DNA of 60,656 nt, taken from IMG/VR virus record IMGVR_UViG_3300021197_000990, positions 1-60,656 of that record. The stretch is one strand, 5' to 3'. The notes beneath the pieces are model-generated. The model was not told the DNA's origin and searched no databases. It saw only the letters and a program-made list of their open reading frames with translations. The position numbers were made by a program, and so were the translations under genes. Below, piece by piece: positions 5,231-60,272 of this stretch (positions are counted from its first letter, which is position 1; each line of letters begins with the position of its first letter). Source of the DNA: a virus.

Positions 5231-5719
5231 ATGTACAAGACTATCGCACGTGGTAACGACGCTCGAGTTAAAACTTATCGTGGAACTGTAACTTCTAAAA
5301 CAGATCCAGAGTTATTAGAACTTAAAGCTAACATCAAACGTCGTAATGATGAGATCAACGCATCTAACGAACGCATTATGTCTTACATCGAACAAGGTGT
5401 AACTAAACATATTGCAGTACCTGGTGGCTGGATTAAGGTTCCTTACTCTATCCTAGACTTACAAACCACACTTCGCGTACGTCTTATGGGTCGTGGTCCA
5501 CGTGAGTCTATCAAGAGTGAAGCGCGTTCTAAAGGCTATCATGGTGATCTAAGTTGTTATCTTCCTATGGAATTTGCAACTCACTTCGATGTCTACATTA
5601 ATCATAACTCTGACGACACATTAACTAAATATGCAAAACGTCTAGGTTACAACGACTACTATGACGCATGGATTAAAACACCAGCACGTCATGCATTCGA
5701 ACCACACTTTGCATTATAA
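5231..5719 (+). CDS. Hypothetical protein, 162 aa
   Basis: Start at 5231 follows TTTAAGGAATATATT; an upstream in-frame ATG (5183) would overlap the previous gene needlessly. The N-terminal half is basic and helical (KANIKRRNDEINASNERI), followed by a mixed domain. No family recognised. Confidence 0.7.
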   Translation: MYKTIARGNDARVKTYRGTVTSKTDPELLELKANIKRRNDEINASNERIMSYIEQGVTKHIAVPGGWIKVPYSILDLQTTLRVRLMGRGPRESIKSEARSKGYHGDLSCYLPMEFATHFDVYINHNSDDTLTKYAKRLGYNDYYDAWIKTPARHAFEPHFAL

Positions 5720-6633: not shown

Positions 6634-6741
6634 GGACTGGCGTCCTGAAATCTGAATATTTTTTAAAACCCGGGCAGGCGTCCATGAGATCCCATGCGAA
6701 TCCTTACGCCCACTTATTGTCATCATGGCCAGCTAAAGCTG
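6634..6741 (+). promoter_or_regulatory. Three stem-loops in the leader of the 6780 operon
   Basis: GGAC-TGGC-GTCC at 6634-6645, GGGC-AGGC-GTCC at 6672-6683 and CAGC-TAAA-GCTG at 6730-6741 repeat the order seen at 507-543. They sit directly after a terminator and 39 bases or more before the next gene, so they are placed like promoters or 5' processing sites of a new transcription unit. Confidence 0.55.
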
Positions 6742-6779
6742 TCCAAATTTATGATGATAACACATAGGAGTAACTAAAG

Positions 6780-12486: not shown

Positions 12487-13077
12487 ATGAATTTCACTCC
12501 AATTGTAATCGAGAAAACTGATAAGTCTGAACGTAGCTATGACATCTACTCTCGTCTATTAAAAGACCGTACAGTATTCTTGAACGGTGGTGTAGATGAT
12601 AACGTAGCAGCAACAGTAGTAGCACAGTTGTTATTCTTAGAAGCAGAGAATGCTGATGAGGATATTACATTATTCATTAACTCACCTGGTGGTGTAGTGT
12701 CTGCTGGCTTAGCAATGTATGACACAATTCAATTCATTAAACCAGATGTAAGAACTATTGTAACAGGTCAAGCTTGTTCAATGGGTTCATTCCTAGCTAA
12801 CGCTGGCGCACCTGGAAAACGTTACATGTTACCTAATGCAAGACATATGGTACATCAAGTATCTGCTGGTACCTCAGGACAATGTTCTGATATGCGTATA
12901 GCAGTTGAAGAAGCTACAAGAATTAACAACACTCTTGCTACGATATATGCAGAGCATAATAGCAAGGGTAAATCAGTAGAAGATCTACTTAAAACTATGG
13001 ACCGTGATACCTGGATGACCGCAGAAGAGTCACTAGAGTACGGATTGATAGACGAGATCATTACTAAAAGAGCATAA
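12487..13077 (+). CDS. clpP: ATP-dependent Clp protease proteolytic subunit
   Basis: 196 aa, close in length and sequence to bacterial ClpP ([31 protein letters not shown]). The triad is intact: Ser98 in GQACSMGS, His123 in MVHQV and Asp174 in [11 protein letters not shown]. The bacterial propeptide is nearly absent. Alone, ClpP rings cut only small peptides; they need an AAA+ unfoldase. The phage AAA+ protein at 919, ending IGFL, is an obvious candidate, and host ClpX/ClpA are the alternatives. Targets could be host regulators or phage scaffold. Ribosome site AAGGAATCTATT. Confidence 0.93.
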
Positions 13078-14796: not shown

Positions 14797-16902
14797 ATGA
14801 AATGGCATGAAAACGTAGAGCTCTATCTTAGGGCTCAACTTACCAATGGTAAACGTTTCAGACATGAAGGACTAAACATACTAAAAGACAATGCAGCTGT
14901 CTGCTACCCTAATTTAGATGGGTACATTCAGTCTGCTCATCATAGTATATCTACGATATGTAAGCTAGAACCATGTGGCACTAAAGCTACTGGTGGGTTA
15001 ACTAATATCAGCTCTACAATAGGCAAAGATATTATGGCAACCATTGGCTCTACACATCAACAGGTAGACTGGAAGAAGTACCTACAACTAGGTGATCTAA
15101 TGATCGAAGCTTTCTTACAGTCAGGGTTACTGAGAATTATTACACCTGAAGCTAGATCTAGAGAACCTATTCTAGTAGAGATAAATGAAGGCTGGCCAAC
15201 AGATTTACCTGAGGCCTTAATCAAGCGAACACTAAGAGGTACGTTTGCTAACAAGCCTAAAGATATCACAGGTCCAACTCAGCTAATCAACTATGATCCA
15301 CTAGGACTAACATTCCATAAGAAGATTATTAAGAGATGGGATGAAAACTTAGATGGCCTTGTCGCTAATATGTTAGATACTCCGTGGATGAAAGCAGTTA
15401 ACAAACTTCAACAAACGCCATGGTCTATTAACAGTGATGTTCTTGAAGCAGTTGTGAGTCAACCTGAAAAGTTCTTCAGCATAGACTCTAAGACTAAAGA
15501 GAACTTCTCTAAGAAGATAGACTATGAATACACTGTCAGCAAAGCAAACATACTAGATGGCACAGTCTTTTATACTGCTGCAGACTTAGACTATAGAGGT
15601 CGTATATACTTCGTTGAGTCATACCTTAACTTCCAAGGTTCAGACTTAGCACGTGGACTTCTAACCTTCGGAGAGAGCAAGATCGTAACGCCTAATGGCT
15701 TACGCTGGCTCAAGATACATTGTGCTTCCTCATTCAACCAGAGTTATTCTATCGATGATATTCCTAGCTGGTGTTCAAGAGATTATGCATCTCACCTACG
15801 AGCAGAAGGCTTAGATAACATATCAGTAGATAAGATGACACTGAACGATCGTGAAGCTTGGTGTGATAACAATATGGAGTTAATAAATGAAACGGTCAGA
15901 AATGGAACGGTGCAAGACTGCGAGAAGCCTGTATGCTTCCTTGCTGCTGCTATTGAGCTTGTCAATTATCATGCTGCCAGTGGTGATTATTATAGTAGCT
16001 TGCCTATACCTGTGGACGGTAGCAACAATGGTTGGCAACACCTTGGTGCAATTTCTAAAGACATTGAGACGGGTAAACTAGTAGGTCTAGTACCAGTAGA
16101 TATTCAGAATGATTTCTACGTACAGACTGCTAAACGATTAATCGAGATTACAAAGGACGAAGAACGTAAGAGTATTCTAGATAGTATGCCTATGAAAGCT
16201 ATACGTAAAGGTATTAGTAAGCGTGGGAGTATGACTAGAGCTTACTCTGCAGGTGCTCAGAAGATAGCAGAGAATATGTTTCAAGACTGTAAGTCTGCTG
16301 GCTATACATTGAAGTATGGTATTACTGAAGAGCATTGTAAAGGATTTGCTAGAGACTTAGTTAAGGCTATCAGTGATGTATGCCCAGGTCCTTTAAGTAC
16401 TATGAAGTTCTTACAAGAGCTAGCAGCTGATAAGCTAAACGAAGGTTACAACTACTTAACATGGACTACACCATCAGGTTTTAAAGTTGTCTATGAGAAC
16501 TACCACATGGATCAGGTAAAGTATGCTAACCGTATTAAAGGTGTAGGCAATGTCCAAGACAAAGTCAAGCACGTACTTAAGATGTCATCACCTTGTCCTG
16601 ATAGACGAGGCTTTATGTGTGGCATTAGTCCTAACTTTGTGCACAGTCAGGATGCTGCTCACATGCAATCAGTAATCGATAGATTTGATGGACTGTTCGG
16701 TGCAGTTCACGATTCATTCAGTACTCATGCTTCGCAAGTAGATGAGCTACTAACTATAACCAAAGACGTATTCATTGAGATGTATGATCATGATAACTAC
16801 TTCGATGACATATGCTACAGACTTAAAGCTGAAGCTATGCAACCACATCGTGGTAACTTATCGATCAAAGATGTTAAAGCATCAGACTACTTCTTTGCAT
16901 AA
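14797..16902 (+). CDS. Single-subunit T7-like DNA-directed RNA polymerase
   Basis: 701 aa, shorter than T7 RNAP (883). Motifs in order are the DYRGR loop (Arg269), motif A PVDGSNNGWQH with catalytic Asp407, motif B Lys471-x3-Lys475...Tyr483, and motif C AVHDSFS with catalytic Asp639. The invariant Tyr-Gly of motif B is Tyr-Ser here, and the first basic residue is Lys rather than Arg. In size and sequence class it corresponds to a fused version of the two-chain N4 RNAP II. It probably transcribes middle and late genes from TGTAACCCTTATGG sites. It follows the helicase by five bases. Confidence 0.93.
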   Translation: MKWHENVELYLRAQLTNGKRFRHEGLNILKDNAAVCYPNLDGYIQSAHHSISTICKLEPCGTKATGGLTNISSTIGKDIMATIGSTHQQVDWKKYLQLGDLMIEAFLQSGLLRIITPEARSREPILVEINEGWPTDLPEALIKRTLRGTFANKPKDITGPTQLINYDPLGLTFHKKIIKRWDENLDGLVANMLDTPWMKAVNKLQQTPWSINSDVLEAVVSQPEKFFSIDSKTKENFSKKIDYEYTVSKANILDGTVFYTAADLDYRGRIYFVESYLNFQGSDLARGLLTFGESKIVTPNGLRWLKIHCASSFNQSYSIDDIPSWCSRDYASHLRAEGLDNISVDKMTLNDREAWCDNNMELINETVRNGTVQDCEKPVCFLAAAIELVNYHAASGDYYSSLPIPVDGSNNGWQHLGAISKDIETGKLVGLVPVDIQNDFYVQTAKRLIEITKDEERKSILDSMPMKAIRKGISKRGSMTRAYSAGAQKIAENMFQDCKSAGYTLKYGITEEHCKGFARDLVKAISDVCPGPLSTMKFLQELAADKLNEGYNYLTWTTPSGFKVVYENYHMDQVKYANRIKGVGNVQDKVKHVLKMSSPCPDRRGFMCGISPNFVHSQDAAHMQSVIDRFDGLFGAVHDSFSTHASQVDELLTITKDVFIEMYDHDNYFDDICYRLKAEAMQPHRGNLSIKDVKASDYFFA

Positions 16903-17376: not shown

Positions 17377-20300
17377 TTAGTGAGCGTAGTATTGATACAC
17401 TGGAACACCTAATCTCTTAAGTTCTTTATCCAGCTCTTTCTTCTTAGCTTCAGTTTGTTTAATCATTACAGACAAACGACTCTGAACATTCATATCTTTT
17501 AATATGTATCTGGTTGCGTCAACAATCTGTTTACCAGTCAATGCAGTATCTCTATCTATAGCATGTACAGGAATACCTACCTTGCGCAGACCATCAATCA
17601 TATGCTTAGCTTTATTCTTAGCTAAGTCATTGAGAGTATCAGGATCTGCATCAGCAGGAAGGTTACCAGTTTGTTTTATAAACTGCTTCAAGTTCCTAGG
17701 TACTAGAGATCCATACTCATTTAGTTCTTGCTTCAACAAGTAGTCTAACATAGGGAAGTCTGATACTAAGTACTCTTTCTTAGGATCTAAAGCTTTCATA
17801 GCTTTTGCGATAATATCCATTGACTTCGCATTAGAGTTATAAGCTTGTTCCAAGTAACTCCACTTCATGTTGATGTTGTACCAGTTCTTATTAACTTCTT
17901 CTAGTGCTACATCATATCCTCGAGCATCAACTTTAAATGCATCATAGATAGTATGAACATAAGGCTTACCACCAGAAGCTGCCTTCATTCTCTCCCAAGA
18001 CTTACCAGTTACTAGTGAAGCAACTGTTGCTGCATCAGTAGCCTGTATAGGACCTGGTACTGCACCACCCATAGCTTTACCACCAGTGCGCTCATCACGA
18101 GCAGCAGCTGCAGTCTTCTTAGCAGGTGGGTAAATGTCAGTAGTACGCTTAACTTGCTTACCATCTTCATTCACGCGATACGAGATACGCTGTTCAGGTT
18201 CAACGTTAGCCTCAATGACTGTACCACCAAAGTGTAGCGGCATGCCATGAGGACCTCTGATTGTGAACGGAATATCTGCGAAAGCTGCAAGCGCAGCAGA
18301 AGATTTCATAAGTGCTCTAGACTTAATTGCATCTGCAGATAAAACGCTAACAACACCAGCTGAGTATGTAGAAAGCAATACATCAGATAGATTATTAAGA
18401 TCGTTGCTAGGACTTTCTAATACAGACTTAACACCTTCATAAGCTACGATGTAGTTAGCATTACTGTCAAGCTGTGGATACTCTAGTGCCATCTCATATA
18501 GTAAAGCAGCAGCTTCATCTATTGCAGGACCCATGCTAGAAATGTCCAGGCCGTAACCAAATGTCATAGTAGACCACTTGTTCAGGTCTCTGTGAGAAAA
18601 CACCTTACGCGCAACCTCATAGATCTTATCGACACCGACTTCATCAAAGTAAGAGGTGAACATCAGACCACCTGTTTGATCTTTAATAGTATCAAGCAAT
18701 GTATCTTGTAGCTTATCACGTAGATCACCATCATCTAACAAGTGTCTACCTTGATTACGGATAACACCAGTAGCTAAAGCAACTTCAATAGATCCCATCT
18801 GAATACCATTAGCTGCTAGACCATTAGTCTTACCATCGAAGTAAGCGTTAAAGTAAGAGTCGTACTTACCGTGCTTCTCCATAGCTGCAGTGTATTTAGA
18901 GAAGTCTATAAGACCATCTATAAAGTGTGGACCATCTTCGCCTTTAGCTTGTATCTCACGGATCAAGTCAGCATCAGCTTCAGGATCTAGTTGTAACCCT
19001 GTGAACTGAGGGAAGTTAGGATCTGTCAATGGAATACCTTGAGCAATAGCATCTGCTACAGCATCAAGTTGACTATCAGTCATACCTTGTTCTACTAACG
19101 ATCTTAATCTACGGCCCCATTTAAGTAGCTGAGGTGTTGCATTTTGTAATGCTCGCTCACGTGCTTCAGGTAGTAGCATATCACCAGCTTGATCTTTGCC
19201 TCTATAACTAACTCCAGATACGTTCTTACTAACTAACATCATCGCATACATCTGTCGTAAGTTTTTATCGATACGGCTACCCTTCCTAGCTGTCGAAGGT
19301 TCAGCCGCTCTTGTAACGAAGCGTACTGGTTTAGAGGTAGTAGCATCAAATGTAGTTTGCTGTGGAGATAATCTTCCGTTATAAGCCATAGTATAGTAAG
19401 TGAAGTAGTTCAGTGAACCACGTTCTGCTGCTATAGCTCTAGTCTCTTGAGCAACTTTATTTTGCACTGCTTGCATATTCTCTTGTGCTACATATCCATC
19501 ATCAGGATCAGATGCTTTCTCTTTAGCTATAAAGCCTTGCATCTTCTTAGGTCCCATGTTATGGATATCACCGAACACACCTGTTAATTCATTTTGAACA
19601 CCAGCAAGAACAGGCAATGCTGTCATGTAGTAGATCTTCTCACGCTGCTTGTCAACGACGTTAGCGATACTAGATAAGTTACGCTTAGCTTCTTTAAGCA
19701 TTAGAGAGTCTTTAGGTTTGATCTGACCAGACATCTCCTTAGAGTAGTTCTTTGCTTCACCTTTAGCATGCATAAGGCCAGGCGATTTAGCCGGTCTCAC
19801 TTGCTGCTTAGGGAATAACTTCTTACGAGCTTGAGCAGAAGCCGTCATTACGTCAGCACCTTCAGGAGTAAGAACAAAGTAAGTCTGTTGACCACTTGCT
19901 TGCTCACGATTGAGTAGATCTTTATTGTTAGCTGCGTATAACTCTTTAGCTGCATCACCAAGTAACGTAGCTTCTTCTATAGAAAGACGATCATTAGTTT
20001 CTTGAGCACCCATTAAACGTTGGTACTCACGATCTAACTCAAGACCAAGTTGAGCATTGCCTTTCAACTTAGGAAAAGCAGAACCTTCTTCTATTGGGAA
20101 GTCATCGGGATCAATACCTTCTTTCTTAAGTGCTTGCACAAGTACTCGTTTAGAAGACTCAAAGTTTTCAGCCATCCAGTTTTCTGTAACGACTGACATC
20201 ATACCAATAAAGTCAGGGTTGTATTGAGCTTTACCTACGTTGTCTTGCACAGCTCCAACTTTACGGAGCACAACAGGTAAACCATCTACTGTGTTAGTAC

Positions 20301-20730
20301 CTAAGAATGAAGACATACCAACTTCTTCGTTAGTTACATTCTGAATTAGGTTATTAGCACGACGGAACATACCACCTAGCCCATCACTAGTGTCAACTTT
20401 CTTATTACCTTTAGGTTTGTAAGCTCCTAAGTCTTGTTGAACACGCTGCTTAATGCTAGGTCTCTGTTGATTATCTATCTCAGCTTGAAGCTCAGGTGTC
20501 ACTGTCATATCAGCAGGTTTTGGATCTTGCACTTGACGTTGATTGATTGCGTCAACACCAGCATCTACTGATCCAACTAATTCGTCTATCGATGCCATAA
20601 GGTCTGGATCGACGCCATCGCTAGCGCCTTCCATTGTTGGCATATCAGACTGAAGTTCTTCAACAGCTGTCTCAGATAGTGTTTGGTTATTACCACCACC
20701 TTGTGCTGTAGATATATTGAACTTTGCCAT
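17377..20730 (-). CDS. Putative virion RNA polymerase, N4-vRNAP-like single-subunit family
   Basis: 1117 aa. The T7-family signature is present in order: AYNGRLSP loop (Arg453), motif A YFDGKTNGLA (Asp632), motif B RDLNKWSTMTFGYG (Arg714, Lys718, Tyr726-Gly727, same spacing as T7 Arg627/Lys631/Tyr639-Gly640), a QATDAAT element (897-903) and motif C HTIYDAFKVD (Asp930). Residues 1-120 are a Pro/Gln-rich, low-complexity N terminus. The size is close to the roughly 1100-residue catalytic core of the 3500-residue N4 virion polymerase. Its place at the end of the ejection-protein block suggests it is packaged and injected to start early transcription. Overall similarity to the 701-aa polymerase is low. 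Confidence 0.85.
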   Translation of the reverse strand: MAKFNISTAQGGGNNQTLSETAVEELQSDMPTMEGASDGVDPDLMASIDELVGSVDAGVDAINQRQVQDPKPADMTVTPELQAEIDNQQRPSIKQRVQQDLGAYKPKGNKKVDTSDGLGGMFRRANNLIQNVTNEEVGMSSFLGTNTVDGLPVVLRKVGAVQDNVGKAQYNPDFIGMMSVVTENWMAENFESSKRVLVQALKKEGIDPDDFPIEEGSAFPKLKGNAQLGLELDREYQRLMGAQETNDRLSIEEATLLGDAAKELYAANNKDLLNREQASGQQTYFVLTPEGADVMTASAQARKKLFPKQQVRPAKSPGLMHAKGEAKNYSKEMSGQIKPKDSLMLKEAKRNLSSIANVVDKQREKIYYMTALPVLAGVQNELTGVFGDIHNMGPKKMQGFIAKEKASDPDDGYVAQENMQAVQNKVAQETRAIAAERGSLNYFTYYTMAYNGRLSPQQTTFDATTSKPVRFVTRAAEPSTARKGSRIDKNLRQMYAMMLVSKNVSGVSYRGKDQAGDMLLPEARERALQNATPQLLKWGRRLRSLVEQGMTDSQLDAVADAIAQGIPLTDPNFPQFTGLQLDPEADADLIREIQAKGEDGPHFIDGLIDFSKYTAAMEKHGKYDSYFNAYFDGKTNGLAANGIQMGSIEVALATGVIRNQGRHLLDDGDLRDKLQDTLLDTIKDQTGGLMFTSYFDEVGVDKIYEVARKVFSHRDLNKWSTMTFGYGLDISSMGPAIDEAAALLYEMALEYPQLDSNANYIVAYEGVKSVLESPSNDLNNLSDVLLSTYSAGVVSVLSADAIKSRALMKSSAALAAFADIPFTIRGPHGMPLHFGGTVIEANVEPEQRISYRVNEDGKQVKRTTDIYPPAKKTAAAARDERTGGKAMGGAVPGPIQATDAATVASLVTGKSWERMKAASGGKPYVHTIYDAFKVDARGYDVALEEVNKNWYNINMKWSYLEQAYNSNAKSMDIIAKAMKALDPKKEYLVSDFPMLDYLLKQELNEYGSLVPRNLKQFIKQTGNLPADADPDTLNDLAKNKAKHMIDGLRKVGIPVHAIDRDTALTGKQIVDATRYILKDMNVQSRLSVMIKQTEAKKKELDKELKRLGVPVYQYYAH

Positions 20731-23700
20731 TAACTTCCTCCTTTAAAATCCCATGCGTCTAGGGCTTTGTTGAACCCTTGTGTCGGGATTGAGAATAACT
20801 TAGCTGTGCCTTTGCCTAATCCTTCAGTATCACCTTTAAGTAAATCAATACCTGTACCAACTGCCATACCAGCTTTACTGATAGCAGGTGACTGACCACT
20901 TATCTCGTTGTATAACCATTCACCAGTGTTCTTAGATCTAGATTCATAGATCGGAGCAATAGTAGATGTGATACGTTCCATAGTTCCCATGAGACCTGAT
21001 GATTGAACACCACGTCTAATAAGTTCTGCGTTATCAAGATAAGGAGTTGACTCACCATATTTGAGTAAGTCTTTAAGGTATTGAGATGCGAATCCCATCA
21101 TGATCATTCCGGTCATAACAGCAAATGCATTATACTTCATAGCAGGTGAACCACGCTTAATGTACTGTTGCCAGAACTTAGGTATGTGGTTTGCTGTGAA
21201 TGTAGACATGAAACCTTGGAACTGAGTAAACAATGCGAACCGTGGATCTTGATAGAACAACGGACGGTTACCAGTTTGCGGGTTTGCAATAGCTTCGTTT
21301 ATAAAATTGTATAATGGATCTCTAATCATATCAGTCAATACACCAGTCTGCTCAGGAGATAGTGTCTCAGGATCTGCTGCTAGCAATTCCTGAAGTTCTT
21401 TTAGTTTACCTGGAGCAACAGTCATGCCTATATTTCTAAGCATCTCTTTGGCTTCCTGGACTTCATTAGTCACAGGTTGACCTTCGTTTTCTAGTATTGT
21501 ATTAATATGATTAAGCATAAAGTCAGCGCCAAAGCTAGCTCTAACTGCTCGAGTCCAATCAGTGTACTGGGTAAGACCAGTCATTCTGAAGTATAGTTTA
21601 ATTAAGTTCTGTTTAGCTGGTATGATTTCACTAACACCAACCTTACTAGCTGTACTAATATCCGGATCAAACATACCTACATTATCGGCTTGCTGATAAG
21701 AATAGTTGTTCATAAGCTTAGCTGCTTCATACTCATCGATATCAAAGTCCTCAGACTTAATTATCTCATGTAGTTCTTTAGCTAGCTGTTGACCTCTAGA
21801 CTTAACACTGTTTTTATCCTTGCCAAATATCTGTTCAGACGTAAGACCTTTCATAGTGATCATCGCCTCTGGTAGAGATGACAATGCCGCTAATGATAGA
21901 GATGTTACAGTAGTAAAGAAGATAAAGTTCTTTTGAACCTCAGCAGCTTTCTTACCTTCATCAGTAGTAGGTCTATGGTAGTTACCAGAATCAGCTTGCA
22001 AATAGTTATACATCTGCGCACCAATGTAATCTGCTTGATCTTTAGGCATGCCTTCAGCTTCAGCTTCACGTAGTAACTCTTCGATTACTTTACCGTTGTC
22101 ACCGACATACTGCTCATGAGCTTGATATCTTGCAGCTGACTTAGCAGCAGTGATAGCGTTGGCCATGATATCTTGTTCCATAAAGTCTTGGAACTCAGCA
22201 CGTTCTGATAGACCTAACGTTCTCTTCTTGTGAGCTGTCGGAACTGTACCTCTCTCGACAACATCGAATGCTTCATCAAGAGTGTTAACCATATCACTGC
22301 CTAGAATTGCTTCTGTGATCTGCACAGCTTGATCTCTTGAAATATTGCCACCATCAATACGAGTTAATCGCTCAATGAATGATGCTTTATTCTTAGAGAT
22401 TACAGACTTATTAAAACCTTTAAACTTAAGTAAGTAGTCTTCAATGTAACCTAGATCTGGATTAAACTTAGTCTGATCTGTATGCATCTCTTTACCAACT
22501 TTCTGTAAGTCTTTAACTAGACTAAGTATAAGTTGTTTTTGAGGTGTAGACTCAGGCACTAGATCTGGGTTAAACTTACCGTTCTCCATTGCATTACTAA
22601 TTACTTTATATATTTTACTACCTGGATCGCTGAAGTTGGTAAACTCACTACCACCTTGACCAAATAGCTTATAGAACTTCTCAGCTTTAGGTAAACGGTT
22701 GATATACTTTGTAGCCACATGGTGCCTATAGTTTTCAAACGCTGCACCTTCATACACTTTCTGTATACCAGCACCAAACATACCTGCTAGCTTTCTGATA
22801 GATCTATATTTAGATTGTTTATCGATAGGTAGAGTATGATGCAGATGTCCTTTAAACACCTTGCCAACCTTAGTCATAGCATTTAACGCTTGATCAACTA
22901 AAGTTCTACCTTGTTTATTTCTTTCGTTAGCTTCAAATCTTGCTTTAAGACCTGTCTTGGTTTCATCTTCCCAAAACCCTGTGCCTCTGTTGTCAGCTTT
23001 GCGTCTAGCATCTTCAGCTATCTCAAGAGTTGTAGGAACCATCTCTTCTGAACCGTAGAAACTTGCTTCTTCACGGAACATAGCTTCAGCTTCTGATCTG
23101 TTCTTAAGATCTGCTGGTGCTAATCTCCAAGCTACATCTGCCCACTGGCCTTTATCGTATACAGTAGCTGCGCCACTCATACCTGCACCAAGTGAACCAC
23201 CTGCAATTGCTGCACCAATAGCTCGTTCTTTAAGATCTTCCCAGTCCCAACCTGAGCCATCGAAGTTTGCACCTGCGTAAGCTATAGATTCTTGAAGTGC
23301 TTCCGTTACACCTTCACCCATGCCACCTTGGATAGCATTAAGAGCAAGGTCGTTGAATGTTTTCTTAGCTGTCAACTGAGATGCAGCAAGCTTAGCACTA
23401 TCTTTCGCAAGACCAGCAACCTGTCTACGAGTTAGACCTGCTAGTTTAGCTTCAGCCATATTCTTAGATATGCCTTCAGCGTTCATAAGTTTAGCCACAC
23501 CTTGTTCAAAGAACTCTTTAGGAGTGTTACCAGTGAACTTAGTAGCTAGCTTTAAACCAACCATATCTAATGCACCTTGAACTACACCAGAAGCTATAGC
23601 TGCGGCTGCTGATTTGTTGTCACCAGCTTGTTCATTATATACTTGACCAGCATAAATAGATGCAGGCACTGTAAGAGATGCACCACCAGTAGGAGCTGCT

Positions 23701-24596
23701 GCCGCTACTGAAGCCATTGTGATAGCCATGTATGGCAAAGACATTGCTAAGTTGTTTCCTAAGAACTCCATAGCTGTGCCAAATGATTTGACATCTTTAT
23801 AGTCAGTTAGTATTTCTGCGTTCTCCATGATGCGACCACGTATTCTAGCGGCACCATGTTCACCCCAGTCAGCTACATCTTCAAGACCTGTTGAGTCACC
23901 GAACATGTGAGCTATACCATAACCAGCTTCTTGTACACCACGCATTGCAGTATTCCAAGAGTCGGTTAAAGGGCTTAACGCTTTGTTATTTAAATCACGA
24001 TCTGTACTTCTAAATTGTACATTACTACTGAACATATCTTTATTGTATGCATATTCTTCTTCATTAGTAGCTGCACGCTTAAAGTTTAACCGATCATAAC
24101 CTTCAGACATCATAGACTCTAGTAGAGCCTGTCCGCCTGCTTTTAATTCTTCATCACCGTCTTTGACGATCTGATCACCAAACAGTTGAGCTACATTGTA
24201 GGCATCAATCTGGTTTTGTGTAGATGCTGGATGAAGGTCTGATACTCCAGTCTCTATGAGACGAGTAGCAAAGTCCTCACCTTTAGCATTCAATAGTTGA
24301 ACTGTTCCACGACCATGAGCAGCTTCTTGATCTAAGACTTTAACATCTGTAAAGCCTTGTTCTTTAGCTAGCTTCATTAGGTCGATAGAGGCAGCGCCAC
24401 CAGCAGTTCCCTGCTTAAAGTTAACGCTACCATCTTCGTTCTTGCCTAATATTTTAGCGATCTCTGGAGCATCAAATCCGGCGACACGGTATGTCTTACC
24501 TTGCTTATCTCGTAATGTATCTAAATCTACAAACGAGTAGTCACCATTTAATGTTGAGCTATCCATGACGGATAGTAAATCTGGATCGATGTCCAT
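20730..24596 (-). CDS. Large internal/ejection protein with N-terminal staphylococcal-nuclease-like domain
   Basis: 1288 aa. Residues 15-120 match the thermonuclease fold: VDLDTL (Asp26), YRVAGFDAPE (Arg37, Asp42, Glu45, with SNase spacing) and HGRGTVQ (Arg96), so all SNase catalytic positions are filled. Residues about 270-470 are Ala/Gly-rich with hydrophobic stretches that could enter membranes. The rest is helical. Large size and position beside the putative virion RNAP indicate a T7 gp15/gp16-type ejected protein. The nuclease may act on host DNA during entry. The start overlaps neither neighbour by more than one base. Confidence 0.75.
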   Translation of the reverse strand: MDIDPDLLSVMDSSTLNGDYSFVDLDTLRDKQGKTYRVAGFDAPEIAKILGKNEDGSVNFKQGTAGGAASIDLMKLAKEQGFTDVKVLDQEAAHGRGTVQLLNAKGEDFATRLIETGVSDLHPASTQNQIDAYNVAQLFGDQIVKDGDEELKAGGQALLESMMSEGYDRLNFKRAATNEEEYAYNKDMFSSNVQFRSTDRDLNNKALSPLTDSWNTAMRGVQEAGYGIAHMFGDSTGLEDVADWGEHGAARIRGRIMENAEILTDYKDVKSFGTAMEFLGNNLAMSLPYMAITMASVAAAAPTGGASLTVPASIYAGQVYNEQAGDNKSAAAAIASGVVQGALDMVGLKLATKFTGNTPKEFFEQGVAKLMNAEGISKNMAEAKLAGLTRRQVAGLAKDSAKLAASQLTAKKTFNDLALNAIQGGMGEGVTEALQESIAYAGANFDGSGWDWEDLKERAIGAAIAGGSLGAGMSGAATVYDKGQWADVAWRLAPADLKNRSEAEAMFREEASFYGSEEMVPTTLEIAEDARRKADNRGTGFWEDETKTGLKARFEANERNKQGRTLVDQALNAMTKVGKVFKGHLHHTLPIDKQSKYRSIRKLAGMFGAGIQKVYEGAAFENYRHHVATKYINRLPKAEKFYKLFGQGGSEFTNFSDPGSKIYKVISNAMENGKFNPDLVPESTPQKQLILSLVKDLQKVGKEMHTDQTKFNPDLGYIEDYLLKFKGFNKSVISKNKASFIERLTRIDGGNISRDQAVQITEAILGSDMVNTLDEAFDVVERGTVPTAHKKRTLGLSERAEFQDFMEQDIMANAITAAKSAARYQAHEQYVGDNGKVIEELLREAEAEGMPKDQADYIGAQMYNYLQADSGNYHRPTTDEGKKAAEVQKNFIFFTTVTSLSLAALSSLPEAMITMKGLTSEQIFGKDKNSVKSRGQQLAKELHEIIKSEDFDIDEYEAAKLMNNYSYQQADNVGMFDPDISTASKVGVSEIIPAKQNLIKLYFRMTGLTQYTDWTRAVRASFGADFMLNHINTILENEGQPVTNEVQEAKEMLRNIGMTVAPGKLKELQELLAADPETLSPEQTGVLTDMIRDPLYNFINEAIANPQTGNRPLFYQDPRFALFTQFQGFMSTFTANHIPKFWQQYIKRGSPAMKYNAFAVMTGMIMMGFASQYLKDLLKYGESTPYLDNAELIRRGVQSSGLMGTMERITSTIAPIYESRSKNTGEWLYNEISGQSPAISKAGMAVGTGIDLLKGDTEGLGKGTAKLFSIPTQGFNKALDAWDFKGGS

Positions 24597-24605
24597 AAAA
24601 ATCTC

Positions 24606-26315
24606 CTATTTGTTTTCTCTTCGGTCAACACCTAGCTTATCTGCTACGAAAACATAGAAACCACTTTCGTGATCGTTAGCCATCGCATCATACTTATCGC
24701 GAACCTCTTGATCAAGCCCAGTCCATTCTTGGATCTTCTTGTTCATAAACAGGTTAGCAATATCAGACACGTTGCCTTCTACTTTATTAAGTTTCATAAC
24801 ATCAGCAACTTTGTTATTGAGCAAAGCCATCTTGCCTGCATCAACCCATTGAGGGTTTTCAGGTGTAGAACCTTTAGCTTCAAATAACTCAGGTGTACCA
24901 GTTCTAGTACGAATAACTAGCTGATTAAGGAACGGACGAATGTCTCTTGGACGTTTGCCTGAGGCCTTAGCATAGTTACGCATATCAGCATAAGCTTGGT
25001 CTAGCAGTACACCAGCTTCATTAGGATCGATGTTATTGGCTGCTGCCCATTGACCTACATGATGTGCTGCGGTTCTAGGATTAAGATCCGTAAATGTACG
25101 TTTATCTTCACCTTCACCGAATGTACCAAACTGTTTCTGCAAAGACTTAAATGTATCTGCAGCTACTGATTGAGCTTTGTATTGACGTTCATTATATTCT
25201 TTAGAACCTTTAACTCGGTAAGGATCTGTCTCATATTGTTCAGGATTAATTGGTTTACCACCAGCAGTGACATATACTTTATTACCAGTTTTATCTTGAG
25301 CAACATAAGCTTTAATTTGCTTACCAGTCTTTTTGTCTTGAACCAACGTTGGGTTAGTTCGATCTATCTTAACTGTACTCTTAGTAATTGGTATTAAGTC
25401 TTTAGCATCACGTGACTGTTTGTAAGCTTCTATGCTGTCTGAAGTGTATTGCTTTTCTTCATGTAGCTTTTGTACTTTCTGCTTATGACCTAACTGTTGT
25501 CCTAAGTAACGCTTACCAGTCCAACGTAAAGAACCACCATGAGAGTAACCAAGAGCTCTACTACCTAAATACATGATTGCTGCTTCAGCTAGATCCTCTT
25601 CATTAAGTAAACCTTGAGCTGCATTACCTAGTGCTGTTAGAACTTTCTGGAACATACTAGGTTTTTCTTGAGCTAGATTCTCACCAGCATCCTTTTGATC
25701 TTCATCATCTACTTGATCAATGGCTGCTTCATCACTTACAGACTTCTCATCGTTTACTGTTTGTGCTAAGACATTTATTGCTTTCTGCTCTGGTTCTTCT
25801 GTCACAGGAACTTCATCAGTCTTAGGAACAACACCATTATATCGATCTCTTGAGTCACTTGTGCTGATCACACCACCAGTTAACTCTGTGATATCATCAG
25901 CTAAGTTCTCTGTAAATTGAGGTTTAAACTTCTCACGACCATCACCTACTTCAACATCTGCAAACTCATCTATATCATTATATAAAGGAACTTGCTGTTG
26001 AGGTCTAGGAACAGAGTTGGAGGTAGGTTGAAACGGCACACGACCATCACCAACATTCTCTTGTGCAAACTCATCTATATCATTATAAGTAGTCTGACTT
26101 ACAGGTTGAGCTTGTTGCTGTGGAACACCAGCGTTACTAGCCATATACTCTAGACCTTGCTGCTGCATCTGACCAACTGGCATCGTCATCAACTCCGGCA
26201 CTTGAGGCTGTGGCACTTGAGCTTGCTGAGGATCTAACATCTTTGGAATGTCAAACTCCTGAGTAATGGTGTTACCATCTTTATCTTTGACAGTCATTTT
26301 CTTTACTTGATTCAT
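24606..26315 (-). CDS. Internal virion protein, 569 aa
   Basis: The N-terminal 200 residues are low-complexity, Gln/Pro and Asp/Glu-rich. They include two copies of a short unit (YNDIDEFA followed by VGDGR) about 35 residues apart. The C-terminal 300 are helical and soluble. No enzyme motif is seen. It lies in the block of five genes (20730-28207) that probably make the ejected inner core. Confidence 0.55.
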   Translation of the reverse strand: MNQVKKMTVKDKDGNTITQEFDIPKMLDPQQAQVPQPQVPELMTMPVGQMQQQGLEYMASNAGVPQQQAQPVSQTTYNDIDEFAQENVGDGRVPFQPTSNSVPRPQQQVPLYNDIDEFADVEVGDGREKFKPQFTENLADDITELTGGVISTSDSRDRYNGVVPKTDEVPVTEEPEQKAINVLAQTVNDEKSVSDEAAIDQVDDEDQKDAGENLAQEKPSMFQKVLTALGNAAQGLLNEEDLAEAAIMYLGSRALGYSHGGSLRWTGKRYLGQQLGHKQKVQKLHEEKQYTSDSIEAYKQSRDAKDLIPITKSTVKIDRTNPTLVQDKKTGKQIKAYVAQDKTGNKVYVTAGGKPINPEQYETDPYRVKGSKEYNERQYKAQSVAADTFKSLQKQFGTFGEGEDKRTFTDLNPRTAAHHVGQWAAANNIDPNEAGVLLDQAYADMRNYAKASGKRPRDIRPFLNQLVIRTRTGTPELFEAKGSTPENPQWVDAGKMALLNNKVADVMKLNKVEGNVSDIANLFMNKKIQEWTGLDQEVRDKYDAMANDHESGFYVFVADKLGVDRRENK

Positions 26316-29779: not shown

Positions 29780-32700
29780 CTACTTAAATATAAATAAACC
29801 AACTTCACTAGCTGAACCATTGTCGGTCACGCTTACTGTTTTTGTTGTTGTTCCTGTAACCGTGTACTCAACACCTGATGCAGAGCTAGAGTTAGCTGCA
29901 CCTGATCCTATAGGTAATATCTCAGTTGCGGCTTCAGGCACTGTAACATTAGTGCTACCAGATCCTGAAGATACATCTAAGTTCCCTGCATATCTTATTA
30001 ACAGTTCATTACCATTTAGTGATACGTCACCATTTGCTTTGATAATCTCAATGCCATACTCTCCAGCTGAACTAGTCGGAGGGTTATTAACTTCTGTGAC
30101 TATCACATCTTTCTGCGCATTCACTGAAGCATAACCATCGTTAACAGTTAAGGTTACTGTATAAGTTCCTGCAACCGTTGGAGTAAATGACCAAGTTGCA
30201 GTTGATGAAGCTGCTCTATTGAAAGAGTTAGTTCCATCTGTAGCAGTATAAGCATAAGTTAACGAGTGACCGTCAGCATCACTAGAACCAGCTCCACTAA
30301 CATTTACCGGATCTCCCTCTTCACCACTTGCTGGGGCAGTTAGTACTGCTACAGGCGCTTGGTTGTCTAAGAGAATAGTAAAGTTCTGTGTAACGCTATC
30401 TGTCCGTCCTAAACTATCAACTACATCAAGAGTCACACTACCAGCTGTATCTACAGTAACATCAGTAAATGTAGCTGTAGTATTCTGAGAGCTTGTAGAG
30501 GACAACGTGATTGGTCCTGTAGATGACCAAGTCCATGAAGTGATAGTAACACCTGCATCTAACGTTGCAGATCCAGTGAGTGCATCTGAGGTACCTTCTA
30601 GCGGCGTTGTAGAACCTACTGAACCGATGGATGCTGTCAAGGTGCTAGGAGCAAGTTGTGTTGCTGTAGCATCCAATGTATCCGTATCTCCGTTACGAGT
30701 AGCTGTAACTCTAAACACTGCGGATCTCTGAGATCCTGCGTTGCCAGTCCATGTGACAACACCTGTAGAAGAGTTTATAGTAGCTGCTGAAGATCCTGAT
30801 ACTTTAGAGTAACTTAAAGTACCTGTACTGGTTATAGAAGGCGAGACAGTTCCTGCTGGAGCGGTCTTATTAGCATAGCTATAGCTAGAGATACTTGCAC
30901 CTCCTTGTTGCAGAGATGTAGCATCTACTGTGATAGTCTGTCCGTTCCTAGAGAATGTACCTCTAACTAACACAGATCTATCTGCTGTACCTTCATTTGC
31001 AGTCCATGTAACAACACCGGTACTTGTATTCACTGTTCCAGCACTAGAGCCAGAGACTTTAGAATAAGAAACAGTTGAGTACACTCCACCTACAGTAGGA
31101 CTAACTGTCCCAGCTGCAGCATTCTTAGTTGTGTAGCTTAATGTTCCTGATACGTTACCTAACTGCGTAGCCGTAGCATCTACTGTATCTGTATCTCCAT
31201 TACGCGTAGCTGTAGCTCTGACTGTGATAGACCTTGAGTTAGTTGAGGTGTTTGTTCCAGACCAAGTAACAGTACCGGTACTAGAGTTAACTCCACCTGC
31301 TGCATCTCCTGAGATCTTAGTGTAGGTCACAGTATCTTGAACTCCGCCAGTGGAGTCAGACTGAGTAGTTATGTTAGGATTAACTGAAGCATAGCTTAAG
31401 GTTATTGTAGCTCCACCTTGTTGCGTACAATTAACATCTACTGTATCTGAGTCATCACTTTGCGTGAAGACACCACGGACGACACAAGATCTCTCAGAAG
31501 TTCCTTCATTAATAGACCATGTGACTTCACCAGTAGAAGTGTTAACTGTTGCAGCTGATGATCCTGAAAGTTTAGAGAAAGTAACTCCACTATACGTTCC
31601 AGTGATAGAAGGACTTATTCCTCCTGCTGCAGCGTTCTTAGTTCCATAACTGAACGACCCATTTGTTCCAGCGAACTGCTTACAAGTAGCATCAAACGTA
31701 TCTGTATCACTATTCCTAGTTACAGTAGCTCTGACAGTTATTGTTCTATCTGAGCCAGTTTCATTTGCGCTTGAGAACGTAACTACACCAGTACTAGAGT
31801 TAACAGATCCTGCTGCATCTCCAGACTGCTTAGCATAGCTTATAGTATCATAGGTACCTGAGACTGTTGGTGATCTTGTAGTAGTTCCTGAGCTCAAGTT
31901 AGAATATGACAAGCTTACACTCGCTCCACCTAACTGAGTACTAGTAGCATCCACAGTATCTGTATCACCGTTTCTAGAAGCTGTAGCTCTAACTACACAT
32001 GATCTATTTGCTGTAGCTTCGTTCGCAGTCCACGTCACAGCACCTGTACTTGTGTTAACAGTAGCAGCGGCATCACCTGATATCTTAGCAAAAGATATAG
32101 AGTCATGTGTTCCGCCAATAGTAGCGTTCACAGTTCCAGAGGCTGCTGACTTGTTTACATAACTTAATGAAACAGTTGCACCACCATTCTGGGTAGCTGT
32201 AGCATCTGCTGTGTTCGTATCTCCATTACGAGTAGCTGTAGCTCTGACTGATATAGATCTAGCCGAAGTGCCTTCGTTAGTTCCAGACCAAGTCACAGTA
32301 CCTGTACTAGAGTTTACTGTACCAGCTGCATCGCCCGATAGTTTAGAATACGAGACAGAAGAATATGTTCCACCTGTAGTATCCACTTGCGTTGTGATGT
32401 TAGCATTAACATTAGAGTAACTTAATGATACTGATGCTCCACCTAACTGAGTACAAGTCGCATCGATAGTATCACTATCACCATTCCGTGTGACGGTAGC
32501 TCTAACTGTGATAGATCTAGATGCAGTACTTTCATTATTAGAAGCCCACGTCACCACTCCAGTTGAGCTGTTAACTGATCCTTGAGAATCACCAGACACT
32601 TTAGAGTAACTTAAAGTAGTGTAGGTTCCACTGATAGTAGGACTTACATCACCTGATCTAGAGTTCTTATCAGCATAGCTCAATGTCGCAGATGCTCCAC

Positions 32701-35700
32701 CTTGCTGAGTTGCCGTAGCATCAGAAGTTGCAGTATCTCCATTACGAGTAGCAGTAGCTCTCACTACACAAGATCTAGAACTAGACGATTCATTATGAGT
32801 CCAAGTAACTATTCCTGTAGAAGTATTGACACTTGCTGCTGAAGATCCTGAGACCTTAGAGTAACTCACAGAAGTGTATGTACCACTCACAATAGGTGAC
32901 TGATCTCCTGATGTAGCGTTCTTAGTCCCATAACTGAGTGAAACGTTAGCTCCGCCTAGTTGAGTCTGAGTTGCATCTACAGTATCTGTATCTCCATTAC
33001 GAGAAACAGTAGCTCTCACAGTTATTGATCTGCTTGAAGTAGAAGGGTTAGCGCTTATCCAAGAGACTACACCTGTGCTTGAATTAACAGAAGCGTTATT
33101 CTGTGTTCCAACCTCAGAGTATGATATTGAGCTATACGTACCTGAGACTGTTGGTGACTGCGTTAACACATTAGCATTGATATTTCCATAACTTAAAGCT
33201 ACACTAGCTCCACCTTGCTGCGTCATAGTTGCATCAGCGGTGTTTGTGTCTCCATTTCTAGTAGCAGTAGCTCTAATGACGCAAGATCTTGAGGCTGTAC
33301 CTTCATTAGCTGTCCAAGTGACTACACCTGTAGAAGTGTTAACTGTTGCAGCTGATGATCCTGAGACCTTAGAGTAACTTACAGCACTGTATGTACCACT
33401 TATACTAGGTGTAGATGTACCTGCTGCTGCATTTCTAGTAGCACCTGTTAGAGATACTGAAGCACCTCCTAATTGTGTACAAGTTGCATCGACAGTATCG
33501 CTATCACCATTTCTAGTACTTACAGATCTTACTGTTATTGATCTTGAGCTAGTGCTCTCATTGTTAGAAGCCCATGTCACCGCTCCTGTAGAAGCATTAA
33601 CTGATCCTTGAGAATCACCGCTAAGCTTACTATATGATATAGAAGTGTATGTTCCACTAACTGTAGGACTTACTGATCCAGATCTAGAGTTTTTATCAAC
33701 ATAAGATAATGTATGACTGGTACCACCTTGTTGTGTACTTGTAGCATCTGCAGTATCTGCATCACCATTGTTGCTTACCGTAGCTCTTACGACACAAGAT
33801 CTGCTACCTGTTCCTTCATTAAGCGTCCAAGTCACTGCACCTGTTGTAGTGTTAACAGTAGCGGCTGACGATCCTGAGACCTTAGAGTAACTAATACTAG
33901 AGTATGTTCCTGCTATTGAAGGGTTCACTGTTCCAGAAGTAGCATTCTTAGTAGCATAACTAAAAGATGTTATAGAAGAACCTGCTAACTGAGTAGCTGT
34001 TGCATCCACAGTATCTACATCTCCATTCCTAGAAGCTGTAGCTCTTACGACGCAAGATCTAGAACTAGCTGCTTCGTTCAGTGGCCATGTAACAGCACCT
34101 GTTGTTGTATTAACAGAAGCGTTAGCATCTCCAGACTGTTTAGCATAACTGATACTAGAGTATGTACCACCCGGACTGGCGTTTTGAGTTCCACCAGATG
34201 CAGCAATGTTACTGTAACTTAATGAAACTGAAGCTCCACCTTGTTGAGTAGCAACGACGTCAGATGTATCTGTATCACCATTTCTAGAAACAGTAGCTCT
34301 AATCGTAGCTGTTCTGCTACCTGTTCCTTCATTAGCTGTCCACGTGATCTGACCTGTGCTAGAGTTAACAGTACAAGCTGTACTTCCTGATACTCTAGCA
34401 TAACTGATACTAGAGTACGTACCTGCAATGGTAACGTTAACACTACCTGCTACAGCATTCTTAGTGCCGTAGCTGAAAGATGTTATAGCAGCACCACCTT
34501 GTTGTGTAGCCACTGCATCTGCAGTATCTGTATCACCATTTCGTGTCACTGTAGCTCTTATTGTAGCTGTGCGAGAACCAGTTCCTTCATTAAGCGTCCA
34601 TGTTATTTGACCCGTACTAGAGTTAACAGTACAAGCTGTACTTCCTGATACTCTAGCATATGACACTGAACCAGTGGTAGTTATTGTAGCGTTGACAGAC
34701 CCTGCTGCTGCATTCTTAGTAGCATAGCTAAATCCAGAGACTGATGCTCCACCAAGTTGAGTAGCTGTTGCATCTACTGTATCAGTGTCTCCGTTACGCG
34801 AGGCTGTAGCTCTAACCGTTATTGATCTATCAGCTGTGCCTTCATTGACTGAACTCCAAGTCACTACACCTGTAGAACTGTTGACAGTACCAGCAGCATC
34901 ACCTGAAAGCTTAGCATAACTCACAGAACTATATGTTCCGGTCGTACTGTCACCTTGAGTAGTAATATTTGAGTTTACATTAGCATAACTTAACCCGATG
35001 GTTGCACCACCTTGTTGAGAGGCAACTGTTGATATAGTTCTTGATACTCCACTTAAGCTTATTGTAGCTCCAACGGTAGAAGTCCTAGATGCAGATCCTT
35101 CATTGTGAAGCCATGTTAACGTTCCACTAGAGTTAATTGTAGTTGCTGAACTGTTTTCAGTCCATGTTCCTATACTTGAGTAGTTACCAGATGCTGATAC
35201 TGCAACACTACCTGATGCAGCGTTCTTAGTAGCATAGCTGATAGTACCTTGTAGTATCGTTGTAGTCGTCGTAGCGCTTCCACTAAACGAACCACCAGAC
35301 CAAGATAAAGTATATCCAATGCTTGTTGATCCATTGTTTGGAGCTGCTACTGAGGTAGCTATACTTTCATTATCTTCTGTAGTAGTTACTGTTCCACTAT
35401 TAATTGTAGCATTAGTGTCGTTACGTTTTACTGTCCAGTTAATATTTGTACCAGTACTTAAGTTAACTACAGAACCAGTGATGCTTACAGTACCACCTGG
35501 CACTACAACTGCAGTGCTGTTTATATTACCTGATACAGGAGTTGTAACTGCAACTGTGTCTACATTAGTCGTTGTAGATCCATTACCACCATTAGCAACT
35601 GGACGTCTTGATTGCAGAGTATAAGTTCCTGCACCTCGGTTTGTTACACTAACATTCGAACCACTACTTGATTGTTCAGTAGAGTTCGGAGTAAACCAGT

Positions 35701-51240: not shown

Positions 51241-51551
51241 TGTCCGTTGTCCTCTTCGTTGTTGCCCATAAATGGAACGTTGGCACCATACATTTCGTAC
51301 TGTGCTAGTTTACCTTTAACATCACCAAGTGCTAATACACAAGAGTATATAAACTCTCTAGCTTTAGTCTCATGTGGTTCTGTCTTTAAAAACTGTAAAT
51401 AATAGTCTACCATTAGCTCGCCGTAAGCACCAGTAAAGAACTCTTCTCGTTCACGTTTAGCGAACTCTGCCTTTACTAATGCTTCTTTAGCTTGAACATC
51501 TGGATGAACACCTTTCAACTTCTTCTCAGCTGACTGCTTGTATTTGTTCAT
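51237..51551 (-). CDS. Hypothetical helical protein, 104 aa
   Basis: Helical, charged, rich in Lys/Glu/Phe; ends in a Glu-Asp-Asn cluster. Located among head genes between the decoration-like protein and scaffold. Possibly a head morphogenesis accessory. Confidence 0.6.
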   Translation of the reverse strand: MNKYKQSAEKKLKGVHPDVQAKEALVKAEFAKREREEFFTGAYGELMVDYYLQFLKTEPHETKAREFIYSCVLALGDVKGKLAQYEMYGANVPFMGNNEEDNGQ

Positions 51552-55080: not shown

Positions 55081-56748
55081 TCAAAGCCACTTAGTATCGT
55101 TACTAAAATCTATAGCTCCGGTTCTCTGACGCCATGAGACATTGCTTCTAGATAGCTTATCCCAATGAGTACGTAGTACTTCACAACCCATAGCTAAAGC
55201 CATAACTGTGTCATCATAACATCCTGGTGCTGCTTCAGTCTTACCTGTTGCAGTAGACACATAATCCTTCAATTCTTGAATCATTACGTTAGATGGTATG
55301 TTGATCTCTTCATTCTCTATTAGGTTCTTTAGATTACCTATGATTGCAGGCTTAGATGCTGAGGTTGTCCTAAAACCTAAGCGTAGCCCTTCATCGTTAG
55401 AGACATTAGCTATTTTAGTCTGCTTATATAAGTTGATATAGTTCATAGACTCTAGCTTCTGCAGCGTAGCAATACCCATACTGTTACTCTCTACACATAA
55501 TAAAGCATTATTGTAATAACGCCCTAGGTAGAATAGGAACTCTCCATACAGACTAGGATCAATCCTATTGTCTCTATATAAAGCTACTACTCTGTGTTGA
55601 GCATCTAATACTACAGCTGCTGAACTATCTTGTCCTACACCTAATGCTACATCGGCTGCGATTACATAGTTACTATCAAAGTCTGGGAAGTCCCATATCT
55701 GTAGTTTACCCTCGCGGCTTTCATCAAACATCTTGCTGTGCGGATCCCACGTCATGTTACGCTGGGCTGCTGCAGGAAGTAGCGCGTCCAGTTTCTCTGT
55801 GTTGAATACGTTACTACCACTTACAATGAACGCTTCATCTGGCGTTGCTGGATACTCTTGTTTGAATTTGAGTTCTCCACCTTCTGCAATTTTGAGTCTT
55901 CTCCAATATAATTGGTCAAGGGATAGATCATACTTCTCTTGAAGCTTCTCCTCCTCTAAAGAGAGCTCCATCCCCTCCGGTGCCTCTCTCTGATACTCCT
56001 GAGTCCAGAACCATGGTAGGAAGATAGGAATATACTCGTTCTCTCCAGCCATAGCACCTTTCCATAGACGGTAGAATTCACCCTGAGCACCATTAGCGGT
56101 AGACTCTAGAATAACCTCGGTACCTGCAGCCTGTGAGATACCTTGGAACATACCAGCAAGTATCTTCTCATCGTGTGTCCAGAAGGCAACCTCAGACAAG
56201 TGAGCTATCGTTGGTGTTGTACCACGTCCCGCTTCCGGTGAACCGGCTGTGTATAGTCTATAAGATCCTATAGCCTCCTTATCTCTATACCATGGGCTAT
56301 TTATCTTTATCTCTTTAGCATTAGACGTTATCTCTTTAGGTTTAAGATCTCCATCCATATTCTTAATTAAGTTCTTACTCATACCGAACAGTGCATCAGA
56401 GGTAGCACTATCGTGAGCCATAACTACAGATCTAGAGTGGGGTGAGAAGTAAGACTTCCAGAATACCCTACCTGCACAGTACGTACTTATGCCTTGTTGT
56501 CGGGCTTTAAGGATTATAGCTCTAACCTTACCTGTCTCTTCAACCTGCTTAGCTAGCTTGTCAGTAATATACTTCTGCGCTTCATTTAGATGGAAGGGTA
56601 CAAAGCCCTTACTAGCATCTTTAGTTACAATTTGTATCTGCTCCTCAGCGAACTTAGCGAAGTCCGTTGAGTAGTCTTTAAGTTTATCACGCTTATCCTT
56701 CTCCTTGAGGAGCCGAATAGCCTGAGCCTTAGTAATCTTATTAGTCAT
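55081..56748 (-). CDS. Terminase large subunit (packaging ATPase-nuclease)
   Basis: 555 aa. Walker A-like KARQQGIST at 81-89, Walker B IAHLSEVAFW at 181-190 with catalytic Glu186, then an RNase-H-like nuclease with YVIAADVALGVGQDS and later CVESNSMG and CYDDTVMAL. It translocates DNA into the prohead and cuts concatemers. The gene is first of the late half, 140 bases after a TGTAACCCTTATGG site. Confidence 0.92.
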   Translation of the reverse strand: MTNKITKAQAIRLLKEKDKRDKLKDYSTDFAKFAEEQIQIVTKDASKGFVPFHLNEAQKYITDKLAKQVEETGKVRAIILKARQQGISTYCAGRVFWKSYFSPHSRSVVMAHDSATSDALFGMSKNLIKNMDGDLKPKEITSNAKEIKINSPWYRDKEAIGSYRLYTAGSPEAGRGTTPTIAHLSEVAFWTHDEKILAGMFQGISQAAGTEVILESTANGAQGEFYRLWKGAMAGENEYIPIFLPWFWTQEYQREAPEGMELSLEEEKLQEKYDLSLDQLYWRRLKIAEGGELKFKQEYPATPDEAFIVSGSNVFNTEKLDALLPAAAQRNMTWDPHSKMFDESREGKLQIWDFPDFDSNYVIAADVALGVGQDSSAAVVLDAQHRVVALYRDNRIDPSLYGEFLFYLGRYYNNALLCVESNSMGIATLQKLESMNYINLYKQTKIANVSNDEGLRLGFRTTSASKPAIIGNLKNLIENEEINIPSNVMIQELKDYVSTATGKTEAAPGCYDDTVMALAMGCEVLRTHWDKLSRSNVSWRQRTGAIDFSNDTKWL

Positions 56749-57654: not shown

Positions 57655-57844
57655 ATTGTGTTGCTTCGCAACCCAACCTGACGTTTGGTATCTCAGAGCA
57701 TTGTGTTGCTTCGCAACCCAACCTGACGTTTACTGTAGTCTGCTGCTGTTAGCAATAGCTTACGAGCATTGTGTTGCTTCGCAACCCAACCTGACGTTTG
57801 GTGTCTTAAAGTATTGTGTTGCTTCGCAACCCAACCTGACGTTT
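57655..57844 (+). repeat. Four 32-base hairpin repeats in two 113-base tandem units
   Basis: Identical 32-base copies at 57655, 57700, 57768 and 57813 contain GTTGC-TTC-GCAAC (5-bp stem, 3-base loop) followed by CCAACCTGACGTTT. The spacers alternate at 13 and 36 bases and the two long spacers resemble each other, so a 113-base unit was duplicated. The stem-loop geometry equals that of N4 virion-RNAP promoters; on the opposite strand the loop is GAA. Not CRISPR: no cas genes, spacers repeat and are too short. Confidence 0.8.
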
Positions 57845-58810: not shown

Positions 58811-58876
58811 TAACGCTGTGTAGCTAATAGCTAGCGAGCAGTAACATTATATAAATCAACAACTTAGGTGATTATC

Positions 58877-60212: not shown

Positions 60213-60222
60213 TATAGAATAA

Positions 60223-60259
60223 ACCAGATGGTCCTTACGGATCGTCTGGTATTTTTTTT
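60223..60259 (+). terminator. SSB terminator (right repeat copy)
   Basis: Same stem as at 133-171, with an 8-T tract instead of 10. Confidence 0.85.
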
Positions 60260-60272
60260 GGGATGATGTTTC

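Follow-up and report, generated by a model that had tools for sequence, protein, structure and literature searches.

The closest described counterpart of the protein analysed here is gp50 of phage N4, a virion RNA polymerase (vRNAP) of 3500 aa in which a polymerase domain of 1106 aa (the mini-vRNAP, residues 998-2103) is accompanied by an N-terminal domain (NTD) and a C-terminal domain (CTD). The CTD is autoinhibitory, and published work treats the giant vRNAP as a feature of Schitoviridae alone (PMC12633501). Reference schitovirus vRNAPs span 2842-3820 aa, and in the main metagenomic survey related proteins shorter than 2500 aa were left out (PMC10654107), a cut-off by which any class of compact vRNAPs would have been filtered out. 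N4 promoters follow a loop rule, 5'-C[GNA]G-3' on the template strand, and K437 and R440 of the enzyme stabilise the initiating nucleotide (PMC4496689). A programme of two phage polymerases, in which a virion RNAP expresses a non-virion RNAP, is known from Thermus phage P23-45 (PMC10770324); that virion RNAP, which is fused to a tape measure protein, shares its ancestry with cellular RNAPs and is not of the single-subunit T7 type. Searches of the open-access literature gave no previous description of a compact vRNAP in phages other than Schitoviridae.

The window analysed here is the whole of IMG/VR record IMGVR_UViG_3300021197_000990 (60,656 nt), which is a complete genome; a direct terminal repeat of ~560 bp is found at its two ends. 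The two copies of the repeat (1-559 and 60091-60656) differ slightly and contain 17-bp tandem units, AGGAGCGTTAGGAGCAC. The terminase large subunit (TerL; 55081-56748, minus strand), portal and major capsid protein (MCP) are 63, 56 and 55% identical to those of Roseobacter phage CRP-7, while the only match to N4 was a T7-like RNAP, similar to N4 gp15/gp16; TerL had no N4 match. Judged by these core genes, the phage resembles CRP-7 and is not a schitovirus, and its genes do not match the N4-like hallmark set (TerL, portal, MCP and DNA polymerase). The gene described below belongs to a short-tailed phage of marine type that is not a member of the N4 family.

An initial annotation, made from the sequence alone, had pointed to a second, virion-type RNAP of 1117 aa at 17377-20730. 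The open reading frame exists, without internal stops, and lies on the minus strand, a detail that the annotation had not given. All of the landmark motifs listed there were present at the residues claimed, including Asp632 and Asp930. AYNGR (residues 449-453; 19372-19386) is equivalent to motif T (DxxGR), whose first position is Ala here and Thr in N4 (PMC4496689). The segment ATTSKPVR (residues 463-470; 19321-19344) aligned with NPQSAKLVR of N4, placing K467 and R470 at N4 K437 and R440. Motif A, DGKTNG (residues 632-637; 18820-18837), carries the predicted catalytic Asp632, corresponding to D559 in the N4 motif DGVTNG. Motif B, RDLNKWSTMTFGYG (residues 714-727; 18550-18591), shows the claimed T7 spacing, R-x3-K-x7-Y-G (R714, K718, Y726 and G727), a pattern common to T7 and N4, with R714, K718 and Y726 equivalent to N4 R666, K670 and Y678. 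QATDAAT (residues 896-902; 18025-18045), which contains D899, aligned with GTGD of N4, and IYDAF (residues 928-932; 17935-17949) is motif C, with the second predicted catalytic residue, Asp930, at N4 D951. Searches with the single sequence returned no match in Pfam, PHROGs, PDB sequences, tblastn against phages or IMG/VR peptide patterns; taken alone, therefore, the motifs might have been a coincidence. A DNA pattern for FDGKTNG gave 34 chance matches in IMG/VR, all in unrelated proteins.

We sought homologs through gene neighbours, searching IMG/VR with the adjacent T7-like RNAP aligned to its CRP-7 counterpart (34% identical) and inspecting the adjoining slot. Contigs that reached far enough carried a minus-strand ORF of ~1130-1270 aa in this slot, and those from the branches nearest this phage matched the 1117-aa protein (BLAST E down to 2e-174). 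A second search raised the family to 46 distinct homologs; the 38 full-length ones measure 1117-1342 aa, far from the ~2800-3800 aa and NTD-RNAP-CTD layout of giant gp50-type proteins. D632, G633, N636, G637, K718, Y726, G727, D899, D930 and N947 were invariant in all 46, so that the signature of single-subunit RNAPs, the aspartates of motifs A and C with Lys and Tyr of motif B, is kept throughout; R453, K467 and R470 were invariant in 44 of 44, the last two being the equivalents of the N4 K437/R440 pair. Arg714 of motif B varied (29 Arg, 8 Lys and 9 other), and in many relatives the motif reads KxxxMTxxYG, which is the pattern of T7 RNAP as well. A slot-3 protein of contigs L135 and L093 with a weak BLAST match to the 1117-aa protein proved not to be an RNAP. 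The only match in a bacterial genome, obtained with a four-sequence query, was a 10-kb contig in a Bacteroidetes MAG (L195; DNHN01000098.1), possibly a phage contig binned with it.

The initial annotation had proposed profile comparison and structure prediction as checks, and both agreed with its assignment. In profile-profile HH comparison, the family matched a schitovirus vRNAP profile with 97.7% probability (E = 1.6e-12), whereas control profiles gave 0.1% for the neighbouring ejection family and 12.5%, with motif A in register, for the T7-like RNAP family. The confident local part of the vRNAP match lay around motif C, and in the extended alignment motifs T, A, B and C matched up in order; a second pair of alignments, from an independent subset, gave 93% (E = 3.5e-7) over motifs T to A. 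In twelve schitovirus vRNAPs motif A reads DGxTNG or DGxNNG and motif B contains R-x3-K, and most of the twelve have an NPQxxKxxR block, so that DGxTNG and an NPQxxKxxR-like block link the family to vRNAPs beyond the general RNAP motifs. Individual homologs also matched the PHROG families RNA polymerase (E = 6.2e-8) and virion RNA polymerase (E = 7.6e-5); a profile of one alignment (A3) found no RNAP among PDB sequences. Conservation across 46 homologs, together with the profile match, makes the motif reading more than chance, and at the sequence level the comparisons establish homology to schitovirus vRNAPs and an intact predicted catalytic site.

An AlphaFold2 model of the 1117-aa protein, built from 22 sequences, was of moderate confidence (pLDDT 66, pTM 0.61), with residues 1-118 very low. 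Its best PDB matches in Foldseek were all single-subunit RNAPs (probability 1.00), namely T7 RNAP (E = 9e-12), N4 vRNAP (E = 1.5e-11) and mitochondrial enzymes, and matches in BFVD were phage RNAPs and annotated schitovirus vRNAPs. Global TM-scores were low (0.35-0.47), and we regard the predicted fold class, the T7/N4 right-hand polymerase, as secure and the details of the model as insecure. T7 RNAP and the 701-aa T7-like RNAP of this phage share the right-hand fold and motifs A, B and C with the 1117-aa protein, but they are intracellular, contain cysteine and use double-stranded promoters, and their similarity to the 1117-aa family is weak at the family level.

In CRP-7, the same slot holds gp33, a hypothetical protein (MK613349) of similar size (1235 aa) that likewise lacks cysteine. 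There was no direct similarity between gp33 and the 1117-aa protein, and a global MAFFT alignment of the two was meaningless; profiles connected them in a chain, from the 1117-aa family to group C (97.4%, E = 1e-11) and from there to gp33 (94.2%, E = 1e-7). Motif B of gp33 reads K...R...YG, in contrast to R...K...YG in the 1117-aa protein, and this exchange of Lys and Arg (K-x3-R-x7-YG) is conserved within the CRP-7 branch (L002, 7860-11567; L004-L012). The gp33 model was too poor to judge (pTM 0.39; best matches mitochondrial RNAPs, with E of only 0.03). It is likely that gp33 is an RNAP, less securely so than the 1117-aa protein.

The genomic position of the 1117-aa gene corresponds to that of N4 gp50: it closes the leftward late operon in both phages, here facing a rightward early/replication unit that encodes the 701-aa T7-like RNAP. 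This non-virion enzyme (14797-16902, plus strand) had also been named in the initial annotation, and a Pfam RNA_pol match (E = 1.1e-54) bears it out. The start of the 1117-aa gene overlaps by 1 nt the stop of the upstream gene for a 1288-aa ejection-block protein (20730-24596, minus strand), the equivalent of CRP-7 gp34, whose C-terminal half matched the virion structural protein family PHROG 6958 (E = 1e-27); a further ejection-block protein, of 569 aa, is encoded at 24606-26315 (minus strand). Thus, where N4 has one 3500-aa protein, this phage has a polymerase-sized protein alone with large separate ejection proteins adjoining. The 1117-, 1288- and 569-aa proteins all lack cysteine, as do gp50, gp51 and gp52 of N4. 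Among the homologs, 40 of 46 have no cysteine and six have one (52,277 aa in total), compared with 10-15 in each T7-like RNAP and 14 in the 701-aa enzyme. Since a polymerase for early promoters that is encoded by a late gene must be carried into the next cell to make sense, the 1117-aa protein is probably packaged in the virion and ejected into the host. It may also be that the 1288-aa neighbour is a gp16-like ejection protein unconnected with the polymerase. In two contigs, the ~1,360-aa ejection protein adjoining the polymerase (L088, 16601-20686, residues 52-135; also L065) has a weak staphylococcal-nuclease-like N-terminal domain (Pfam SNase, E = 0.002, just under the cut-off), and the N termini of the 1288-aa protein and CRP-7 gp34 resemble that of the L088 protein by eye.

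We scanned for hairpins with a 3-nt loop that read 5'-C[GNA]G-3' on the template strand. Four tandem copies of GTTGC-TTC-GCAAC, which the initial annotation had not mentioned, were found behind the terminase gene, in the divergent control region at the head of the rightward early unit. They lie within putative early promoters on the plus strand at 57655-57686, 57700-57731, 57768-57799 and 57813-57844 (hairpins 57660-57672, 57705-57717, 57773-57785 and 57818-57830), with the minus strand as template and a GNA loop, here 5'-C[GAA]G-3', closed by C:G. The 13-mer and its orientation are identical to the first of the three early hairpin promoters of N4, and its template strand folded with -6.2 kcal/mol. 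At the position of the N4 start site the window has CC instead of GG, and no T-run follows the hairpins. Three early promoters have been described in the leftmost 10% of the N4 genome, and our scan of N4 fits them, with three hairpins within the first 8 kb, before gp1, gp2 and gp15.

Of 17 phage contigs in the group, 5 had clustered hairpins of this kind, and all 16 copies were noncoding and directed into the early unit; in a shuffle control, any hairpin cluster appeared in 1 of 720. The five copies in contig G001 are spaced at 73 bp and have a different stem and the loops GAA or GCA, two copies identical to these are present in G003, and G013 has two hairpins with differing stems. In G016 three copies are dispersed (loops GAA or GCA; GTA in L176), and single copies stand between early genes in G016 and G013, as in N4. 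The loop rule is thus kept in four lineages despite different stems and a varying middle base, which would be the selection expected from an enzyme that reads the hairpin. N4-type hairpins were not found in CRP-7 or in G004 (L062, fairly close), G007 and G010-G012, several of which have the control region and some of which are incomplete contigs. The exact promoter repeat of the window had no match in IMG/VR or phages, leaving no close relative for comparison.

The reading that we favour, at a probability of roughly 0.83, is that early transcription is begun by an ejected, compact N4-type vRNAP, after which the 701-aa T7-like RNAP takes over. The 1117-aa protein would be a catalytically intact single-subunit RNAP of the N4 vRNAP type that consists of the polymerase domain, whether through reduction or because it was never larger; it shares with the N4 enzyme DGxTNG, K-x7-YG, the motif-C Asp, the K437/R440 equivalents, the size of the polymerase domain (1117 and 1106 aa) and the absence of cysteine. 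As the final product of the structural operon it would be synthesised late, join the other cysteine-free ejection proteins in the virion and enter the next host either before the DNA or together with it. Inside that host, hairpins with 3-nt loops, extruded on the template strand at the head of the rightward unit, would be its recognition sites, and it would transcribe the early genes, including that of the T7-like RNAP, which would then take over. We infer packaging, ejection, hairpin-dependent initiation and hand-over; the central proposal of the initial annotation, a compact stand-alone vRNAP-type enzyme beside ejection proteins in a phage with a T7-like RNAP, has support from the conserved family, the profile matches, the fold search, the place of the gene, the lack of cysteine and hairpins identical to the first N4 promoter. 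The protein could instead be an active second RNAP that stays out of the virion, made late and used in the same cell, for late genes or replication priming for example. Its gene does lie in the late operon, and its presence in the virion is something we infer, but its lack of cysteine is shared with the adjoining ejection proteins and N4 gp50-52 and not with intracellular RNAPs, its closest relatives are vRNAPs, and the N4-type hairpins stand at the early unit rather than at late genes, which makes this quite improbable.

We consider it very unlikely that the protein is a structural ejection protein descended from a vRNAP that has lost RNA synthesis. Such a loss would agree with the strong divergence of the protein, which left it without single-sequence matches, with the missing motif-B Arg in some relatives and with the Lys/Arg swap in the CRP-7 branch; however, the catalytic residues are unchanged in 46/46 sequences despite divergence to ~20% identity, the Lys/Arg pair that holds the initiating nucleotide in N4 is kept, and the hairpins are still present. 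There is a somewhat larger, though still small, chance that the protein is a vRNAP and its early promoters lie elsewhere, the tandem hairpins being terminators, replication iterons or packaging signals. Tandem arrays are known at origins and packaging sites, several relatives have no hairpins and the predicted start site lacks the GG of N4. Against this, a terminator is at odds with the missing T-run, the N4 loop rule holds while stems and middle base vary, and the copies always point into the early unit, with the N4-like single copies between early genes.

If the vRNAP reading holds, a start-up system regarded as peculiar to N4-like phages seems to be widespread, and much simpler in this form. 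The initial annotation had called the compact enzyme a simplification; that direction of evolution is unproven, and a compact ancestral form is equally possible. Tentatively, and with rather less than even confidence, we suggest that in a large group of CRP-7-like marine phages the common vRNAP is compact, stands alone and is driven by extruded DNA hairpins, and that this form may be ancestral. The giant schitovirus vRNAP would then be a derived fusion, and the tasks of its NTD and CTD (membrane channel and autoinhibition) would fall in these phages to separate ejection proteins or be left undone. A natural version of ~1,100 residues makes it possible to test the roles of the N4 NTD and CTD, how the polymerase is ejected, whether the giant form is derived and how hairpin promoter and enzyme co-evolve. 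For the CRP-7 type, a cultured and widely distributed group of marine phages, it points to a function for a protein annotated as hypothetical, and small hairpin-specific polymerases are possible tools.

Further repeats and genes were observed in these genomes. In a related branch that lacks N4-type hairpins, the control region contains a tandem repeat of 25 nt peculiar to it, TGTTCCTATAAGGTACTTAAAAGAT (L154 of G007, 5274-5380; L145, on the G002 contig, 51475-51533), which could be the early promoter of that branch. In the window, an imperfect repeat of ~80 bp (CGG-CAGGCGTCCATGA ... CCAGCTGAAGCTGTCCAA) lies just upstream of two rightward genes, at 506-555 and 6671-6752, and is a candidate promoter or RNA element, perhaps serving the T7-like RNAP. 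A 2567-aa repetitive, Ser/Thr-rich tail-type protein with many copies of a unit of ~85 aa is encoded at 29780-37483, and two genes resembling ClpP/head-maturation proteases (12487-13077 and 58868-59596) are located in the rightward early/replication region, away from the capsid genes.
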